Below, one piece after another: positions 21,318 to 46,605 of a stretch of DNA of 64,000 nucleotides. The DNA is from Bacteriovoracaceae bacterium (GTDB taxonomy: Bacteria; Bdellovibrionota; Bacteriovoracia; Bacteriovoracales; Bacteriovoracaceae): the NCBI GenBank assembly GCA_021737405.1, contig JAIPEG010000006.1, positions 1 through 64,000 of the forward strand, written 5' to 3'. The first letter of the stretch is position 1. Every line of letters begins with the position of its first letter. The notes below the pieces were generated by a model, which did no database searches, had not been told where the DNA came from, and saw nothing but the letters and a program-made list of their open reading frames with translations. Made by a program: the position numbers and the translations under genes.

Positions 21318-22432
21318 TCATAGAAACTCTCTAATCTGTCTTGTCCGATATATTGAGCCTTTTTCTTTATAAATTCATGAAAGATGGACATTAGCTTTTC
21401 CTGTTTCTTTTCTTGTGCTGGTTGCAGCTTTTTCCAACAAGTGACAAAAGTTTCAAGGGTGTTTAAAGCGCCGGGACGAATTTGCTTTCTAAGTAGGTAA
21501 TTTGAATCAAGTCCCTTTATCTCATAGCGAGGAAGATCTTCTAACCAAGGGTTTTGAAAAAGAATCCTCTTACTTTTTTTCCAACTAGCATCAATGAGAA
21601 TAAGAGGAAGGGGAAGTTTTATAAGCTCTTGACTTGTATATACGGCCGAATCATTTGTCTTGGGATAAATGAGTGTGCCCGAGATTTCATTAAAATAGTT
21701 ACCTTCAAGAACTTGAAGATTTTCAAAATACCTCTCTAGAAGGGGGAGAGTGGCCAAAGGATGCTTTGACTCATCAGGATGGCGTAAAACAATGATAGAA
21801 GGTGCAATTTCTTTTACCTTTGGAAATTCATTGCAAAGGCAAAGTGGAAGGACGTGGTGACATTGAAGACAGGCCTTCTCTTTAAAAATATTTTTGGCAA
21901 TGATTTTTGTTTTTTTCACTTTCTTTTTCAGAGGATTCCATCCAATTCCCCAGATTCTGCCGTCTTTATAAGTATGGAGTTCAACTATCCTCTCTGTAAT
22001 ACCTTGCGCTGATCTTGTGACTTCAAAGATTTCTAGGTTATAGAGTTCATCGGTTACTTTCTTCGGTCTTCGCTTTGCCATTAAGATATGGCCGCTATCT
22101 CCTGATTTTGGAATAACTTGTTTCTTCCAGCATAGAACATCGTGACGCTTTATTTCCTTAATATTTTCAATGGGTCCATTGGTTTCAATATATTTAAAGT
22201 AGTCCGACGCTCTTGGGTTTTGTGGGAGTGAATCTGGAAATAGAGAGAGCTCTTTTAGGAGAAGAGTAATAAAACCTGCACAATCACAGGAGAAAACTAA
22301 ATCTAAACGATCAAAATGAGGGACTCGCTGAAACTTGTGAGCCCCTTTTAGAAGGAGGAGCTCTTCAAGTAATAGGTGAAGAGGTGATGCCTTTGGCCTT
22401 TGTTTATTGGACAGTAGCTTCGAGGACTCCAC
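21314..22432 (-). CDS. NlpC/P60-like peptidase domain fused to a DTW domain
   Basis: About 372 residues from a GTG at 22432, which has AAGGA 6-7 nt upstream; the open frame extends to an ATG at 22510 deep inside the upstream gene. The N-terminal half has the NlpC/P60 signature with catalytic Cys in DCAGF (Cys51) and His in DSGHILMA (His115). The C-terminal half, from about residue 190, is a DTW domain (tRNA-uridine aminocarboxypropyltransferase/TapT type): CLQCHHVLPLCLC zinc-like motif, RHPDESKHPLATLPLL, LILIDASWKKSKRI and a later LNTLETF. The pairing is very unusual. No signal peptide, so cytoplasmic. It is the last gene of the surface-nuclease operon. Confidence 0.75.
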   Translation of the reverse strand: MESSKLLSNKQRPKASPLHLLLEELLLLKGAHKFQRVPHFDRLDLVFSCDCAGFITLLLKELSLFPDSLPQNPRASDYFKYIETNGPIENIKEIKRHDVLCWKKQVIPKSGDSGHILMAKRRPKKVTDELYNLEIFEVTRSAQGITERIVELHTYKDGRIWGIGWNPLKKKVKKTKIIAKNIFKEKACLQCHHVLPLCLCNEFPKVKEIAPSIIVLRHPDESKHPLATLPLLERYFENLQVLEGNYFNEISGTLIYPKTNDSAVYTSQELIKLPLPLILIDASWKKSKRILFQNPWLEDLPRYEIKGLDSNYLLRKQIRPGALNTLETFVTCWKKLQPAQEKKQEKLMSIFHEFIKKKAQYIGQDRLESFYD

Positions 22433-25400
22433 CGAAAATTCCTTGAACTTCACTCCATGAGAATGAACCTTGTGAGTCGACCATTTTATTACATTTAATA
22501 TGAAGCTCATTGCCAGAGTTCGTCACTAGGGAGAGCTTAATCGCTAGTCGATTTTGAAGGGCTTGTTCTTCACTAGACATTAAAACTAAAGATTTGTCTG
22601 TCTCTAAAAAAGAACCCTCAACTTCACAGTGAGGTTTTTCTTTGAGTTTTTTAAAGGTCTCAGGTCCAGTGAATAAAGAGTTTTGTATGAGTCCATCGAC
22701 AATAATATTTCCCTTGGATTTTGAAAGGATACTGAACTTATCCTGTTCAATGATTTTGATCTTTAGCGAACCTTTAAGTTCACTTAACGGAAGTACTGTC
22801 TGCTCTCGTAACTCATCACTTGGACTTGGGTTCTTAAAGTAGAAACTAGCAAGAACTGGGTCATGATCCGATATACGACCCATGTAATCAGTATTGAGGT
22901 GAAGCACCTCAAAGGCTGGATTCTTTGTCATGAGCTTTCTATTAGCAAAAATGAAGTCAATGGCCGAACTATTGCCATTAAAGTTATGAGAGTAGCGATC
23001 TCTTGGATCCACTAAATTTCCACTAAACATCATATTATTAAGGATGCCACCATTTTCAAGGGTCTTCATTGAACGCTCGTTATAATGGGCATTAAAGTCA
23101 CCAAGGACGATTATATTTGCATTTGGCTCGCGTAACTCAATGATCCTGACAAACTCATTAATTCCTTGAGCCAGCAAGGCCCTCTGCTCATCTGACTTTG
23201 GGTAAGGAGGTTGTTGAGCACCCCAAAAAGACGTGTCACCAAGCTTTGAATTAAAGTGGTTACCGATAACAAAAATCTTTTCACCTTTAAAGTCAAACTG
23301 AGCAACGATACTCTTTCGGGTATTTTTAAAAGCATCGGCGTTTGGAAATACTCGTCCTGGATTTACAGATAAGTTTCCATCTTGAGTCATACGAGTTTCT
23401 TGAAGAGTACCATTGGCAAGAGGTCCGTCTGTGGGGCCTCCCCAACTCGTAAAATTGACTCTTTTAGCATTATAAATCATGGCCACACGGATATTCCCAC
23501 CTGGCTGGCCACCTTCATTATGATTAATGGGGTTAACGTTAATGCCTTGATACTTAACGCCATCTTGAGCACATTTTGAATTTTTAATAATTTTATTGAT
23601 GGTCTCTGTAGCATCGGCCTCACCTTGAAGGTCTAGACCATTGTCATCCTGAACTTCTACTAAGGTTACGATATCGGGGCACTTAAGATTATGTCTGATG
23701 GCCTTTCCCATACTCTCAAGGCGGTCCTCTTGGTTGCCTGCAAGGTTTTCAAGATTTGCGGCCGCAATTGTAAGTCTTCGTCCTTCACCAATTTGCTTGG
23801 TTTGAGGGCGACACTCAAAAGGCATTGATCCTTTGAAGAAGTTGACATCAAGACAGTTAATCGTCTTCTTAGGATTACCATCATCGTCCTTTTCAAAGGA
23901 ATCTTTTAAAAGGTTCTTACTCGCTATTGCAAACTTTGGCCCTTCTGGACTATCACTTAAGCTCTCTCTCATTTGGAGAATTTCAGCACAAGTCGCATTT
24001 TGAAGACCTTGGTCAAAAAGCTCTGTATAGGCCGGCGTTAGGTATTCTAAAGAGCGAACGACACATGGTGCCTCCTTAGAATTATTTACAAATTTGTCAT
24101 AGCGGTAAATGGTATCTGGGAGAACCAAAGTGTATTCACCACCACCAAAGAGGTTACTTTCAAAGCTTATAATGCCCGTAATATCACCTTTGAAAATGTC
24201 GCCGACATTATAATGATATTCTGTTGTTATAAGGCCCGAGGGAACGCGACACTTCTGCTCTCCAGCATCATCAGTATAGATTAGTCCACCTTGAAGATTA
24301 CAGTTCTCTAACTTCCTAGGGTTTGATGGACTTAAGCGATTAAAGTCTGCTGTTAGGTTGCCGGCAGAAACATGAAGAACTTCTGGGTTGAAATCTCCCA
24401 CCATAAAGTCTTCAGTGATACCACCAGTAAGCGTGCGAGAAGTGGTTCTTCTAAAACCATCTGGAACAATAAAGAGACTTAAGTGTCTTTGTGGATTTAG
24501 GCGCACAAGCTCTTCGTTACCGCCACGAAATCCAGTTACGCGGGGGTTACGAATGGAGACTCTCATTCCCTCTAGTGACTCCCAAAAATCGATGCCATCA
24601 GTAAGTTTTAAAAAGGGCTTGAAGTTTAGGTCACCTACCCAAGTCGAAAGCACACGGTTAGGAACTGGACGGCCATCCATTCCAATTAAAACGGGTTTTG
24701 GTAAAGGGTTGTTTGTACTAAATATTTTTAAATCAGTAACATCTCGAATAACAGTCTTAGACATATTTTGCTTATTATCGAGAGTCATATGCTCAAAAAC
24801 AGTACCTTTTACACGTATGTAATCACCAACTTTAACATCGGTTATGTCTGTCTTTAAATGCACATGAAGAGCATCAGATGTTTCATCAACGCCATCACCA
24901 GTTTCATCCTGAATAATGATATCTATCCCTCTTGGAAACCAATCAACGTTGTCGACAGCAGTAACAATTCCACCAGTCGTGACTTTATGACCCCAAACGG
25001 GAGAGCGGTGAGCATTGCCTTGGATTTCATAAGTTCTTTTGAAACCAATATCATTAAAGGTGAAGTCACTAAAACGACCTCTTACTTCACTCAGATAAGG
25101 AAGCTCACCAACTGTTCTTAAGTATGTTCTTAGTGTCTCTTTGGCAGAAATAATGGATCCTGTAGGAACAAAACTAAAGTTTAGACCATTTCTGAATTTA
25201 TAAGAGGGAAAAGTTTCTCCTGAAAAGAAGAAGTGATTATTGATGGCAATCCTATAGCTCTCAGTATCTTCAAAAGTGCGGCCATTATCAAGGCCATAAT
25301 TATCCATAGTGACAACACCGGCCACCATATGAACGTTGTAGACCATGCCGGCCACTTCAATATCAAGTTTAAAAGTGTCTTGAATACGGGTGCGGATGAG

Positions 25401-25775
25401 CTTTTTAATGTCACGCCCCTTCATCACGCCAACCATGAATTCATCTTTATTTCCTGAAAGAGGATAAAGATTCATCAGGGACTCCATGTCCTGGCCAGAC
25501 ATTGAAGTTGAGACAAAGGCCACATTTTCTTCGTTCACAAGATCTCTTGGGTAAAGAGCAATATCCAAGTCATGAACTTCTCGCATGGCCGTTGCCATGA
25601 GGTTCCCGGCACTTGAGGAGGTGTAGTCATTTCTCACACCATTTTTTAGCTTAGTGATTTTATGGGTTCCTTCTGTCGTAACAAAGGAGGTCCCATTTTC
25701 TAGGCGGTAAGTTTCATTGCCGCAAGAAAGAGAGAGGAGGAGAATGGCGAGAAGTATAAACTTGTTCACATTCAT
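22404..25775 (-). CDS. Large lipoprotein nuclease: 5'-nucleotidase C-domain, OB-like and EEP domains
   Basis: 1123 residues with a lipobox (LLSLSC). Residues ~25-230 resemble the C-terminal domain of 5'-nucleotidases (YTSSSAGNLMATAMRE, GVMKGRDIKKLI), without the metallophosphatase domain that normally precedes it. An OB-like stretch follows (~255-360), as in extracellular nucleases of the ExeM/Xds group. From ~665 to ~985 is an endonuclease/exonuclease/phosphatase domain: ANLENLAG, VEVQDDNG, IGNHFNSK, LGDFNAHYN and ISDHDPV supply the metal and catalytic residues. It is probably an outer-membrane-anchored DNase. It overlaps the upstream lipoprotein gene by 4 nt. Confidence 0.85.
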   Translation of the reverse strand: MNVNKFILLAILLLSLSCGNETYRLENGTSFVTTEGTHKITKLKNGVRNDYTSSSAGNLMATAMREVHDLDIALYPRDLVNEENVAFVSTSMSGQDMESLMNLYPLSGNKDEFMVGVMKGRDIKKLIRTRIQDTFKLDIEVAGMVYNVHMVAGVVTMDNYGLDNGRTFEDTESYRIAINNHFFFSGETFPSYKFRNGLNFSFVPTGSIISAKETLRTYLRTVGELPYLSEVRGRFSDFTFNDIGFKRTYEIQGNAHRSPVWGHKVTTGGIVTAVDNVDWFPRGIDIIIQDETGDGVDETSDALHVHLKTDITDVKVGDYIRVKGTVFEHMTLDNKQNMSKTVIRDVTDLKIFSTNNPLPKPVLIGMDGRPVPNRVLSTWVGDLNFKPFLKLTDGIDFWESLEGMRVSIRNPRVTGFRGGNEELVRLNPQRHLSLFIVPDGFRRTTSRTLTGGITEDFMVGDFNPEVLHVSAGNLTADFNRLSPSNPRKLENCNLQGGLIYTDDAGEQKCRVPSGLITTEYHYNVGDIFKGDITGIISFESNLFGGGEYTLVLPDTIYRYDKFVNNSKEAPCVVRSLEYLTPAYTELFDQGLQNATCAEILQMRESLSDSPEGPKFAIASKNLLKDSFEKDDDGNPKKTINCLDVNFFKGSMPFECRPQTKQIGEGRRLTIAAANLENLAGNQEDRLESMGKAIRHNLKCPDIVTLVEVQDDNGLDLQGEADATETINKIIKNSKCAQDGVKYQGINVNPINHNEGGQPGGNIRVAMIYNAKRVNFTSWGGPTDGPLANGTLQETRMTQDGNLSVNPGRVFPNADAFKNTRKSIVAQFDFKGEKIFVIGNHFNSKLGDTSFWGAQQPPYPKSDEQRALLAQGINEFVRIIELREPNANIIVLGDFNAHYNERSMKTLENGGILNNMMFSGNLVDPRDRYSHNFNGNSSAIDFIFANRKLMTKNPAFEVLHLNTDYMGRISDHDPVLASFYFKNPSPSDELREQTVLPLSELKGSLKIKIIEQDKFSILSKSKGNIIVDGLIQNSLFTGPETFKKLKEKPHCEVEGSFLETDKSLVLMSSEEQALQNRLAIKLSLVTNSGNELHIKCNKMVDSQGSFSWSEVQGIFGGVLEATVQ

Positions 25776-31268: not shown

Positions 31269-33038
31269 ATGTTTAAGTACAAACCTTGGTTCCTTTTGGC
31301 GCTCCTTTCTCTTTTTTTTACTGGATGTCAGCATCCTCTTCGAAACCTTGCTCAAGAAAAGGTCGCTTTTGATGAGGTATATGGAACGACTCAAGGACAG
31401 AGGGTTCGCCTCGTTTATGAGGGAATCATTGAGCATTACGACTCTCTGACAGAAGTTGAAAAATCAGAGTTGGCAAAAGTGACGCTAAAGGATTTCGATG
31501 GTGATAATGCTCTTTTGCCTCTTCCAAGGGTTTTATCTGAACTTGAATTTGATGAACTCTCTAGGGGAGTGGAGCAAAGAGGAAAGGCGCTGCGAGCTTT
31601 TCTTGAGGATCATTACTCGGGCAAAAAGGCTTATTTAAAACAAGGGATTATTCCAAAAGCCGTTCTTGATAGAGTCATTAAAAGAGCTGGCGAAGAAGAT
31701 TGGGAAAAGTTTATTAAGCCTGATAATTTAAACTTTTGGTATGGACCTGATGTGATTAGAGGCCCTCCGTCTGACGAGTTTCCTAATGGGCAATTTTTAG
31801 TGGTGGAAGATAATCCTAGTTTCATTGGGGGAATGGGGGATCTTATTCGAGCTCGGGAAATATTAGATAAATATATGCCGGCCTATTCAAAAGTTACAAA
31901 AAGTGAAGGGCCTGAGAATTTTTATGAAAGACTACTTAGTGATTATAAAAGAAGGGCAAAAAGATTTAAGGGAAAAGCGGTTCTTGTTCAATACATTACG
32001 GCACTTACAGCAGATAACGAAGAGAAGAGAATTCGTGCCTTAATGGAAGAGGCAGGAATCGATGTTGTGTTTGTTAATCCGTATACTAAAAATAGTGGTT
32101 GGAAAGAAAATAAAAAAAGACTAAGAGTTGATGGAGACGATCTTTTTATTGAGACAAGAAGTGAAACTGGAATAATTTCAAAGGAAAAGGTGGGTTATAT
32201 AATTACTAATATGAACCCACAGGACTTAGAGCTAAGTCACGCTGGAAATGAAAAGTATCATATTATGGCCGAAGCAGAATGGGAGCTTGAGCAAAAGGGG
32301 CTTAAGAAAAGTTATCGAGAGGGTCTTCGAAATTTGATGAAGGCCAATCCACAAACGGGTGACATACCTTATAATGAAATAAAAACATTTATAAAAGAGA
32401 ATAGTCCTTATAAGACAAGCTTTGATCAACAACTTGGAATCCCTGGCCTGACAGACCTTACAGCAAAGGGAAAGCTTGGGATCACCAATGGACCAGGGAT
32501 GGAATTTGTAGGTGATAAGGAATTTTATATTTATATTGAAGGCTTTATTCGCTACTACCTTGGTGAAGAGCCTATTTTAAGAAATATGGACACCGGAAGC
32601 TTTGCTCGCATGAACCATGAAGGGCGCGAGGTCATCGATCGACGTGCGCTAAATAAAGTTTTTAAGAAAAAGAATAATTATGTCATAAAAGATGTTATTG
32701 GCCGAGGTGGTGATGCCGTTTGGGTGGGGCCAAAAGTCGCCGATGATATATGGGAAGAAGTTAAGCTAAAAGTGAGTGAAAACCCTGCTCGTTATATTTA
32801 TCAAGAGTTTAATCCGTTATCCACAATGAGTGGTTTTATAGGGGACATTCGTCTTATTAGTGATGTCAGTAAGTCAGGAGTAAAGGTTGCAAATATTCCC
32901 TGGGCAAGAGTGGTTAAAATGGATGGAGATGGAAAGGTGAATATTTCTGCCAATGGCTTTGAAGCGACGGTCCTGGTTAGGAAACTCAGTACTCTTGGAA
33001 CTTGTAATAAGTTATTTCGAAATATACTTCTTCAATAG
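31269..33038 (+). CDS. Lipoprotein with circularly permuted type-2 ATP-grasp domain
   Basis: 589 residues. The leader (MFKYKPWFLLALLSLFFTGC) ends in a lipobox with Cys20. The body matches the circularly permuted ATP-grasp type 2 family: the PLPRVLSELEFDELSRGVEQR start, ALRAFLEDHYSGKK, FLVVEDNPSFIGG, then a C-terminal lobe with VIKDVIGRGGDAVWVGP (phosphate-binding loop) and YIYQEFNPLSTMSG-IGDIRLI, and finally KVNISANGFEATVLV. These enzymes ligate carboxylates to amines using ATP in the cytoplasm. An exported lipoprotein form is unusual because ATP is scarce outside the cell. Alone in its transcription unit. Confidence in the fold is good; activity is unproven. Confidence 0.78.
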   Translation: MFKYKPWFLLALLSLFFTGCQHPLRNLAQEKVAFDEVYGTTQGQRVRLVYEGIIEHYDSLTEVEKSELAKVTLKDFDGDNALLPLPRVLSELEFDELSRGVEQRGKALRAFLEDHYSGKKAYLKQGIIPKAVLDRVIKRAGEEDWEKFIKPDNLNFWYGPDVIRGPPSDEFPNGQFLVVEDNPSFIGGMGDLIRAREILDKYMPAYSKVTKSEGPENFYERLLSDYKRRAKRFKGKAVLVQYITALTADNEEKRIRALMEEAGIDVVFVNPYTKNSGWKENKKRLRVDGDDLFIETRSETGIISKEKVGYIITNMNPQDLELSHAGNEKYHIMAEAEWELEQKGLKKSYREGLRNLMKANPQTGDIPYNEIKTFIKENSPYKTSFDQQLGIPGLTDLTAKGKLGITNGPGMEFVGDKEFYIYIEGFIRYYLGEEPILRNMDTGSFARMNHEGREVIDRRALNKVFKKKNNYVIKDVIGRGGDAVWVGPKVADDIWEEVKLKVSENPARYIYQEFNPLSTMSGFIGDIRLISDVSKSGVKVANIPWARVVKMDGDGKVNISANGFEATVLVRKLSTLGTCNKLFRNILLQ

Positions 33039-33103: not shown

Positions 33104-34327
33104 ATGACACTTATCAAGAAAGTCCCCATCGTTTCTGAAAATGAGCTTAAATATATTTTATTATTAGCTGCGGTTCAATTTGCTCATATGGTTGATTTTG
33201 TGGTGCTGATGCCTCTTGGTCCGACCTTAATGCAAGACCTCTCTATTACACCTGCTCAATTTGGAACTTTAGTTTCGTCTTATAATTTCTCTGCCGCTAT
33301 TGCAGGTATTCTCTTTGGCTCATTTGCTGATAAATTTGATCGAAAATTTTTATTAATCATGGCGTTGATTGGTTTTACCCTTGGAACCTTTTCGTGTGCA
33401 ATAGCTTCAGATTTTCCATTGTTAATAACGGCGAGAGTCGTCACTGGTGCCTTTGGTGGTATGTTAAATGGATTAATTTTTGCGATTATCAGTGACATTG
33501 TGCCTTTTGAAAGAAGAGGAAAGGCCATGGGTGTTGTGATGAGCTCATTTTCTGTAGCAAGTGTAGTAGGTGTGCCCATCGGACTTGCGATCTCTGATTT
33601 TAGTCATTGGAAATATACTTTTGTCTTCATAGGGACTTTTAGTGTTCTAATTATCATTTTAGCCCAATTAATTTTTCCAAATATTACGGATCATTTAGGA
33701 AAAAATGCGGAGTCTTTCTTCGCTCGTCTTAAAGGCCTTGTTGCTTTTCCAAACTATCGCTTAAGCTTTATGTTTATCTTTCTCGTGAGTGGAAGTATGT
33801 TTCTTTTAATACCCTTTCTTTCTCCCTTCGCGGTGAAGAATATGGGAATTGCCACTACAAATTTGAAGTATATGTATCTCGTCGGTGGAATCTTCACGAT
33901 AATAACAGCGCGAATATTTGGTGTTCTGACCGATAAAGTCGGAGCGATAAAATTATTTACGATCATTGTTTTAGTTTCCTTTGTGCCAATAACTCTTTAT
34001 ACCCATGCTGGTATTATTTCCTTTGTCACTTATTTGGCTTTAGGTTCATTTTTTATGACGATGGTTTCAGGCCGTATGATTCCTTGTATGACTCTCATTT
34101 CTCAAGTTCCTAATTCTAATGATCGCGGTCTTTTCATGAGTGTATTAAATTCTGTTAGGGCCATGGGAAGTGGGACCGCGACTTTCTTTGGTGGCTTAAT
34201 TATTAGTGAATCCGCTTTAGGGAATCTTGTGGGCTTTGATACAGCGGGTTTTTTATCTGTTGGTGTGGGCCTATTGACCGTACTTTTGGCCATACTGATA
34301 AGCCGAAATCTAAAATCCCCTGCATGA
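33104..34327 (+). CDS. MFS transporter (drug/metabolite efflux type)
   Basis: 407 residues with about twelve membrane helices. The signature between helices 2 and 3 is GSFADKFDRKFLL, and helix 5 has VASVVGVPIGLAIS, matching the DHA1-type efflux antiporters (AraJ/Bcr-like). A second, weaker copy of the loop motif, GVLTDKVGAIK, is between helices 8 and 9. It is expected to be an inner-membrane proton-driven exporter. Substrate unknown. It follows the ATP-grasp lipoprotein by 65 nt, possibly in the same unit. Confidence 0.85.
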   Translation: MTLIKKVPIVSENELKYILLLAAVQFAHMVDFVVLMPLGPTLMQDLSITPAQFGTLVSSYNFSAAIAGILFGSFADKFDRKFLLIMALIGFTLGTFSCAIASDFPLLITARVVTGAFGGMLNGLIFAIISDIVPFERRGKAMGVVMSSFSVASVVGVPIGLAISDFSHWKYTFVFIGTFSVLIIILAQLIFPNITDHLGKNAESFFARLKGLVAFPNYRLSFMFIFLVSGSMFLLIPFLSPFAVKNMGIATTNLKYMYLVGGIFTIITARIFGVLTDKVGAIKLFTIIVLVSFVPITLYTHAGIISFVTYLALGSFFMTMVSGRMIPCMTLISQVPNSNDRGLFMSVLNSVRAMGSGTATFFGGLIISESALGNLVGFDTAGFLSVGVGLLTVLLAILISRNLKSPA

Positions 34328-46067: not shown

Positions 46068-46605
46068 GGGGAAAAGGTGGGTCACCCTCTAAAACATTGC
46101 CCTTTCTTTGGCGCCAATCTTTAAATAAGTGAAGAACCATAATTCCAAAACCTGTCATAATAACGACATCTGCGATATTGAAAATATTAGTTTCAAAAGG
46201 TCTCTTAATACCAAAGTAGAGAAAATCAACAACATAGTTAAAGCGGATGCGATCGATTAAGTTTCCACAGCCACCAGCAGCGATTAAAAGATAGGACCAA
46301 AATTCTAATTTATTGATTTTCTTACTAAAGAGGGAAAAAAGAGAGAAGGCCATAAGGACAGCAACAGGCAGAACAATGAGAAAGAGGCTTCTATAAGGCT
46401 CTTGCCAGTTTCCACCAAGATTTCCCCAAGCGCCATTATTTTCAGCGTAGGTCAATTGGGCCATTCCAAAAAAGTACGAGCGTGGTAATTCACCTTTTAA
46501 GGCCTCTATCGCCCAGATCTTACTCTTTTGATCCAATAGGATAAGTATAAGGAAGGTTGGAATAAAGAAGGTGATTCTTTTAATTGTCGGGTAGCTAGTA
46601 TTCAT
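46057..46605 (-). CDS. lspA: Lipoprotein signal peptidase (signal peptidase II)
   Basis: 182 residues from the ATG at 46605; other in-frame ATGs lie up to 14 codons upstream. Four membrane helices with the conserved LspA motifs: D25 region (LLDQKSK), LTYAENNGAWGNLG, GGCGNLIDRI (catalytic Asp118), NYVVDF and FNIADV (catalytic Asp146). It cleaves the signal peptide before the lipidated Cys, and would process the many lipoproteins of this window. A four-residue LTYA in place of the common VxN before ENNGA is noted. It ends within the convergent MBL gene (11-nt overlap). Confidence 0.92.
   Translation of the reverse strand: MNTSYPTIKRITFFIPTFLILILLDQKSKIWAIEALKGELPRSYFFGMAQLTYAENNGAWGNLGGNWQEPYRSLFLIVLPVAVLMAFSLFSLFSKKINKLEFWSYLLIAAGGCGNLIDRIRFNYVVDFLYFGIKRPFETNIFNIADVVIMTGFGIMVLHLFKDWRQRKGNVLEGDPPFPPSL

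Follow-up and report, generated by a model that had tools for sequence, protein, structure and literature searches.

The usual reaction of an ATP-grasp enzyme proceeds through an acyl-phosphate to an amide or a similar bond. Ligases that use ATP in this way are expected in the cytoplasm; in the periplasm, ATP is normally scarce. The circularly permuted (CP) ATP-grasp family is already known, and its best solved relative in a search with the A1 profile was 3n6x (E 1e-39). Two plasmid-borne classical members of the family adjoined Alpha-E and transglutaminase genes. In the open-licence literature (titles and abstract starts), we found no report of an exported CP-ATP-grasp protein.

The locus described here lies in a 64,000-nucleotide stretch of Bacteriovoracaceae DNA, which we refer to as the window. 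It encodes a CP-ATP-grasp protein with a putative export leader, and this protein belongs to a branch that is spread over one phylum, the Bdellovibrionota. This exported branch appears to be new.

Family membership and the predicted export leader

The open reading frame at positions 31269-33038 of the forward strand started with an ATG at 31269, ended with a stop at 33038, and encoded 589 amino acids. A sequence-only reading had assigned the product to the circularly permuted ATP-grasp family, and profile searches placed it there well above the cut-offs. Specifically, PF14403 (CP_ATPgrasp_2) matched the window protein at E 1.9e-37 (129.5 bits; cut-off, 32) and PF04174 (CP_ATPgrasp_1) matched it at E 7.2e-32 (111.1 bits; cut-off, 23.1), each model in two stretches. 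All 26 members of an alignment of relatives (A3) matched both models, with PF14403 at E 0.01 or better. The motif order was that of a permuted protein: an E-x-N motif at residues 180-182 was followed by a block with a Lys, a Gly loop, D-x-R, Arg, and Asn at residues 474-558. The permutation thus places the E-x-N motif in the N-terminal half. An AlphaFold2 model that was built from three sequences (the window protein, L005, and L006) had a mean pLDDT of 40.7.

A viral collection yielded no relative, and three phage records matched with a coverage of at most 30% and were annotated as DUF404 or unannotated. Plasmid searches with two queries returned 107 and 101 records, every one below 60% identity. 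Coverage of the window protein stayed below 80% in all 107 records; for the second query, 7 of the 101 reached that level, with an identity near 25% among the matches listed.

The coding sequence, the elements of its leader, and the putative processing enzyme were located as follows.

31269..33038 (including the stop codon), + strand: coding sequence of the predicted exported circularly permuted ATP-grasp protein, 589 amino acids
31269..31325, + strand: predicted lipoprotein (type II) signal peptide, residues 1-19; ortholog leaders keep its character, with low identity
31326..31328, + strand: lipobox Cys20, predicted to be lipidated; Gln is next in all four lipobox members
46123..46554 (matched stretch only), - strand: signal peptidase II (LspA, PF01252; E 3.2e-31), the lipoprotein-processing enzyme

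The leader read MFKYKPWFLLALLSLFFTGC, with Q as the next residue. In the N-terminus (MFKYKPWFLLALLSLFFTGCQHPL), a Lys-containing n-region preceded a hydrophobic core, and Cys20 stood in a broad lipobox; the pattern that we applied was of the PROSITE type. The window protein passed both the lipobox test and the hydrophobic-core test. When residues 2-40 were shuffled 20,000 times, 23 of the resulting sequences passed both; among 20,000 whole-protein shuffles, one did. Both tests were also passed by 9 of the 55 window open reading frames of at least 150 amino acids, so lipoproteins seemed to be common in the window. The genome thus combined a lipobox leader with a signal peptidase II gene, the latter within the window itself, and the window protein is probably lipid anchored, as judged from these sequence features. 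Another predicted lipoprotein in the window, a 1,123-amino-acid protein (22404-25775, - strand), had a C-terminal part that resembled an endonuclease/exonuclease/phosphatase domain by eye.

Comparison with L005 indicated that the leader diverged faster than the mature part, with 18 of 34 leader positions identical versus 444 of 557 mature positions, yet the character of the leader was kept. Synonymous sites of the mature part were saturated in this comparison.

The ATG was assigned from sequence and not by experiment, which would leave room for a misassigned start codon and a cytosolic protein. In-frame starts were found at residues 1 (ATG), 10 (TTG), 68, and 71. The TTG at residue 10 would leave the lipobox in place, and a start at residue 68 or 71 would drop E36 and Y50, both of which were invariant in the 26-member A3 alignment; a later start is implausible for this reason. 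In addition, a 78%-identical ortholog had the same bases (TTCCGAAAAG) immediately before the ATG, and a leader was kept in 32 genes of the family (see below). We therefore regarded a wrong start as having a negligible chance of being correct. The lipobox leader with Cys20, which the sequence-only reading had proposed, thus stood up to the shuffles and to the internal start past the leader that the same reading had named as one possible refutation.

The leader across the Bdellovibrionota

Of 368 genomes in the phylum, 107 had PF14403 matches. Among the 98 genomes around the window genome (itself included), 10 held a relative. Four close members, namely the window protein, L005, L006, and L010, had a lipobox whose Cys is followed by Gln. 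Three further orthologs (L011, L012, and L013) had a signal-peptide-like leader without the lipobox Cys pattern, and the remaining leaders of the family resembled ordinary signal peptides. The two close relatives with names were metagenome-assembled genomes of the Bacteriovoracaceae and Bacteriovoracia.

To describe the leader more widely, we used 45 rows, consisting of 43 short-frame phylum genes among the matches listed and the two plasmid-borne classical proteins, and the counts from this set are lower bounds. The set left out G327, which belonged to another subfamily, and the classical gene G007:C235 (L029), which was cut at a contig edge. Among the matches listed, a Sec-type leader was present in 32 of the 45 rows and absent in 13; the latter included one row truncated at the 5' end and one very divergent row. 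The leader-bearing rows represented at least 32 genomes and at least eight families of Bdellovibrionota, with leader-bearing genes numbering at least 7 in family f1, 5 in f6, 10 in f8, 3 in f11, 1 in f16, 4 in f20, 1 in f22, and 1 in f29. The hydrophobic-core score was 1.91 or higher in the 32 leader rows and 0.02 or lower in the leaderless rows that could be scored, with a measure that picks the best of all possible starts and so favors finding leaders, in the same way for all rows; in the rest of the leaderless rows, the stretch ahead of the domain was too short for a score. Thus, in the proposal of an exported lipoprotein, the family and the export leader held, and the lipobox proved to be the local version of a leader that was found in 32 of the 45 family rows. 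The sequence evidence that the branch is exported is strong.

We built a tree of 43 rows from the columns after the leader; G257, whose 5' end was cut by its contig, and the very divergent G265 were dropped. The leader label needed three changes on this tree, compared to a mean of 9.8 with shuffled labels, and none of 500 shuffles was as low; the tree was made by a quick method without bootstrap, and the placement of some rows on long branches was unsure. A leaderless clade of six (G364c31, G303, G338, G337c322, G117, and G321c72) was nested in the exported branch with an SH-aLRT of 100. The simplest reading of the tree would be one early gain of the leader and two later losses, one in the clade of six and one in G243.

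The rows also differed in their Cys content. Exactly one Cys followed the leader in 26 of the 32 leader-bearing rows, versus 0 to 12 Cys residues in the leaderless rows. In the window protein, the lone conserved Cys near the C-terminus was located as follows.

33003..33005, + strand: C579, which apart from Cys20 is the sole Cys in the mature chain; the column held a Cys in 27 of 30 leader-bearing genes (G362, which leaves its contig after N558, was counted among the 30 and hence as a miss)

These observations bear on whether the leader might instead be an uncleaved membrane anchor with the enzyme domain facing the cytoplasm, an arrangement in which ATP would be at hand. The positively charged residues that precede the hydrophobic stretch favor an N-in/C-out orientation, as expected from the positive-inside rule, and many relatives had A-x-A-like cleavage sites right after the stretch (by eye). 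Together with the single Cys after the leader, these features made a cytoplasm-facing anchor very improbable, and we continued to favor export.

The predicted nucleotide site and a proposed function

The predicted ATP and Mg residues of the window protein mapped to the following positions.

31806..31814, + strand: E180-D181-N182, predicted Mg-binding E-x-N motif; invariant in A3, with Ser in place of N182 in the leaderless clade
32514..32519, + strand: D416-K417, which line up with the EK region in ATP-grasps of the GSH synthetase type
32688..32690, + strand: K474, predicted ATP phosphate-binding lysine
32700..32717, + strand: G478-R-G-G-D-A483, glycine-rich loop
32802..32804, + strand: Q512, predicted hinge residue of the nucleotide pocket
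32844..32852, + strand: D526-I-R528 motif
32907..32909, + strand: R547, predicted ATP-grasp arginine (A3 alignment)
32940..32942, + strand: N558 within GDGKVN, predicted Mg/ATP ligand

The invariant columns of A3 included E180, D181, N182, D416, K417, K474, G478, G481, Q512, D526, R528, R547, K556, and N558. When a profile of the C-terminal segment was compared to 12 GSH-S_ATP proteins from related genomes (E 2e-4; probability, 46%), K474, Q512, D526, R528, and N558 were matched with the corresponding Lys, Gln, Asp, Arg, and Asn positions of those proteins, which serve as ligands of ATP and Mg in enzymes of the GshB type. In the comparison with the full profile (E 0.0045; probability, 8%), the DK pair was set on the EK pair. 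Against the RimK-type proteins of the window's genome, the profile comparison was not significant (probability, 1.2%; E 0.045).

All eight of the residues E180, N182, K417, K474, D526, R528, R547, and N558 were unchanged in 30 of 30 leader-bearing genes that could be read through the site; G336 and G249, which end before N558, were excluded from the 30. In the leaderless clade, N182 was Ser in 6 of 6 genes, and G478 was Glu or Gln in the 5 of 5 that covered the site. The members of this clade with Ser182 (L030, L106, and L068-L071) are perhaps catalytically altered. On sequence grounds, we see strong evidence that the nucleotide site of the exported branch is under constraint.

The sequence-only reading had also suggested that the exported domain may have become a binding protein. 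A site that only binds a nucleotide or another ligand, for example in a sensing, scavenging, or structural role and without catalysis, would fit the general scarcity of ATP outside the inner membrane and the altered classical substrate motif described below. However, a pure binder would have no obvious need for the entire set of Mg and ATP residues that was kept in the 30 genes, and the N182 change belonged to the leaderless clade instead. Decay to a mere binding protein is thus disfavored because the ATP site is intact, and we judged a binding-only role to be unlikely.

The classical substrate and partner appeared to be different. The Arg of the classical R-x-DD motif was replaced by Asn (N314) in the window protein. 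Alpha-E was found in none of the 32 leader-bearing genomes, versus all three phylum genomes with classical members, where it adjoined these. The transglutaminase N-terminal domain Bact_transglu_N was not found in the window's own genome. Because both the classical Arg and the Alpha-E partner were lost, the substrate is presumably not the classical one.

Gene neighborhoods offered no clue to the substrate or function: among 27 clustered neighborhoods, no neighbor gene was common to most. The upstream SDR gene was confined to three close relatives, and the most widespread of the other neighbor clusters occurred in six loci. An MFS gene was located downstream in the window and in L025, and at the end of L006 its start could be recognized by eye. 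In the window, this MFS transporter (33104-34327), directly downstream, resembled the myxochelin exporter model MxcK at 301.5 bits, below the cut-off of 525.

Taken together, these results led us to propose that the window protein is a Sec-exported, Cys20-lipidated ATP-grasp ligase that acts outside the cytoplasm on an envelope molecule with external triphosphate, the leader having been gained early in the phylum. We give this proposal an even chance, and the evidence on function is weaker than that on export and site constraint. In such a scheme, a branch of CP-ATP-grasp proteins would have gained a signal peptide early in the phylum and kept the full set of ATP and Mg residues. The window protein would be exported via Sec and then lipidated on Cys20, and the Gln at position +2 would probably direct it to the outer membrane; sorting by the +2 residue is the E. 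coli rule. Most likely, the enzyme would use a nucleoside triphosphate to turn a carboxylate into an acyl-phosphate and then link it to an amine on an envelope molecule (a peptide, the wall, or a lipid). The triphosphate would come from outside, either leaked, freed by lysed neighbors, or taken from prey.

Alternatively, the protein could be an effector that crosses the envelope into the cytosol of prey or another cell, where ATP is plentiful and an intact ATP site would have its substrate. The two close relatives noted above belong to the Bacteriovoracaceae/Bacteriovoracia, a lineage that is known for predators. However, a lipid anchor would hold the protein on the membrane, a search of the protein's own genome (84% complete) revealed no type II secretion pseudopilin GspG, and the distribution over at least eight families was patchy. 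We considered an effector role to be quite improbable and retained the proposal of an extracytoplasmic ligase.

The window genome also encoded a second predicted exported CP-ATP-grasp lipoprotein, which belonged to another subfamily. This 1,089-amino-acid protein (G000:C30; L019, 601-3870, - strand) had the leader MKTKNYLSAILVLCLFISAC, a CP_ATPgrasp_2 match at E 3.7e-19, and an HExxH motif. We read 15 genes of this larger subfamily, which is a subset of its members, and both exported and leaderless members were present among them. Where covered, the E-x-N, DK, K-GG, Q, D-x-R, R, and N-T-S motifs were kept with or without a leader; DH or DN replaced DD in some members, and HExxH was missing from several. 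The leaders of L060 and L061 scored 1.85 and 1.68, under the 1.91 seen elsewhere. Tentatively, and with more doubt than confidence, we suggest that Bdellovibrionota may carry out the chemistry of ATP-grasp ligases beyond the inner membrane, with at least two CP-ATP-grasp subfamilies moved across with intact sites and some members of one carrying the HExxH peptidase-like motif. If this were true, these bacteria would have a nucleoside triphosphate available for use in their envelope or where they touch other cells.

Another cytosolic-type enzyme with a putative export leader was observed apart from these families. L023 (3765-6119, - strand) encoded a 784-amino-acid protein that was predicted to be a lipoprotein and had a class-III aminotransferase domain (E 1.7e-21); its relative in G013 (L125) was 57% identical over residues 306-783 and had a lipobox-like leader from a GTG start.

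Comparison with known systems

The exported branch would place a predicted ATP-using enzyme outside the cytoplasm over at least eight families, with its ATP residues unchanged. It is therefore a test case for triphosphate use in the bacterial periplasm and for the source of that triphosphate; the phylum includes predators of bacteria, and prey could be such a source.

The closest known proteins are the classical cytosolic members of CP_ATPgrasp_2 (PF14403). Like the window protein, they belong to the same family by profile, have the permuted motif order, and keep E-x-N, DK, K, the Gly loop, Q, D-x-R, R, and N. The classical members that we read had no leader, adjoined Alpha-E, and kept the Arg where the exported branch mostly has N314. 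In contrast, the exported branch lacked Alpha-E in the genome and had a leader, a Cys near the C-terminus, and two signatures, W545 and G-x-GKVN. In the case of 3n6x, named by its depositors as a putative glutathionylspermidine synthase, the aligned stretches stopped near query residue 525.

The leaderless clade shared the W545/R547/GK-N signature with the exported branch where covered, but it lacked a leader and had Ser182 and, in the genes that covered the site, Glu or Gln in place of G478. Members of the second subfamily (800-1300 amino acids, several with HExxH, e.g., P0002 of the window's genome) were also CP-ATP-grasp proteins with intact motifs; unlike the window protein, they were much longer and had different N- and C-terminal regions. 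Finally, the Alpha-E/transglutaminase peptide-modification system is marked by both of these genes, and with Alpha-E in 0 of 32 genomes, the exported branch stands apart from that system.
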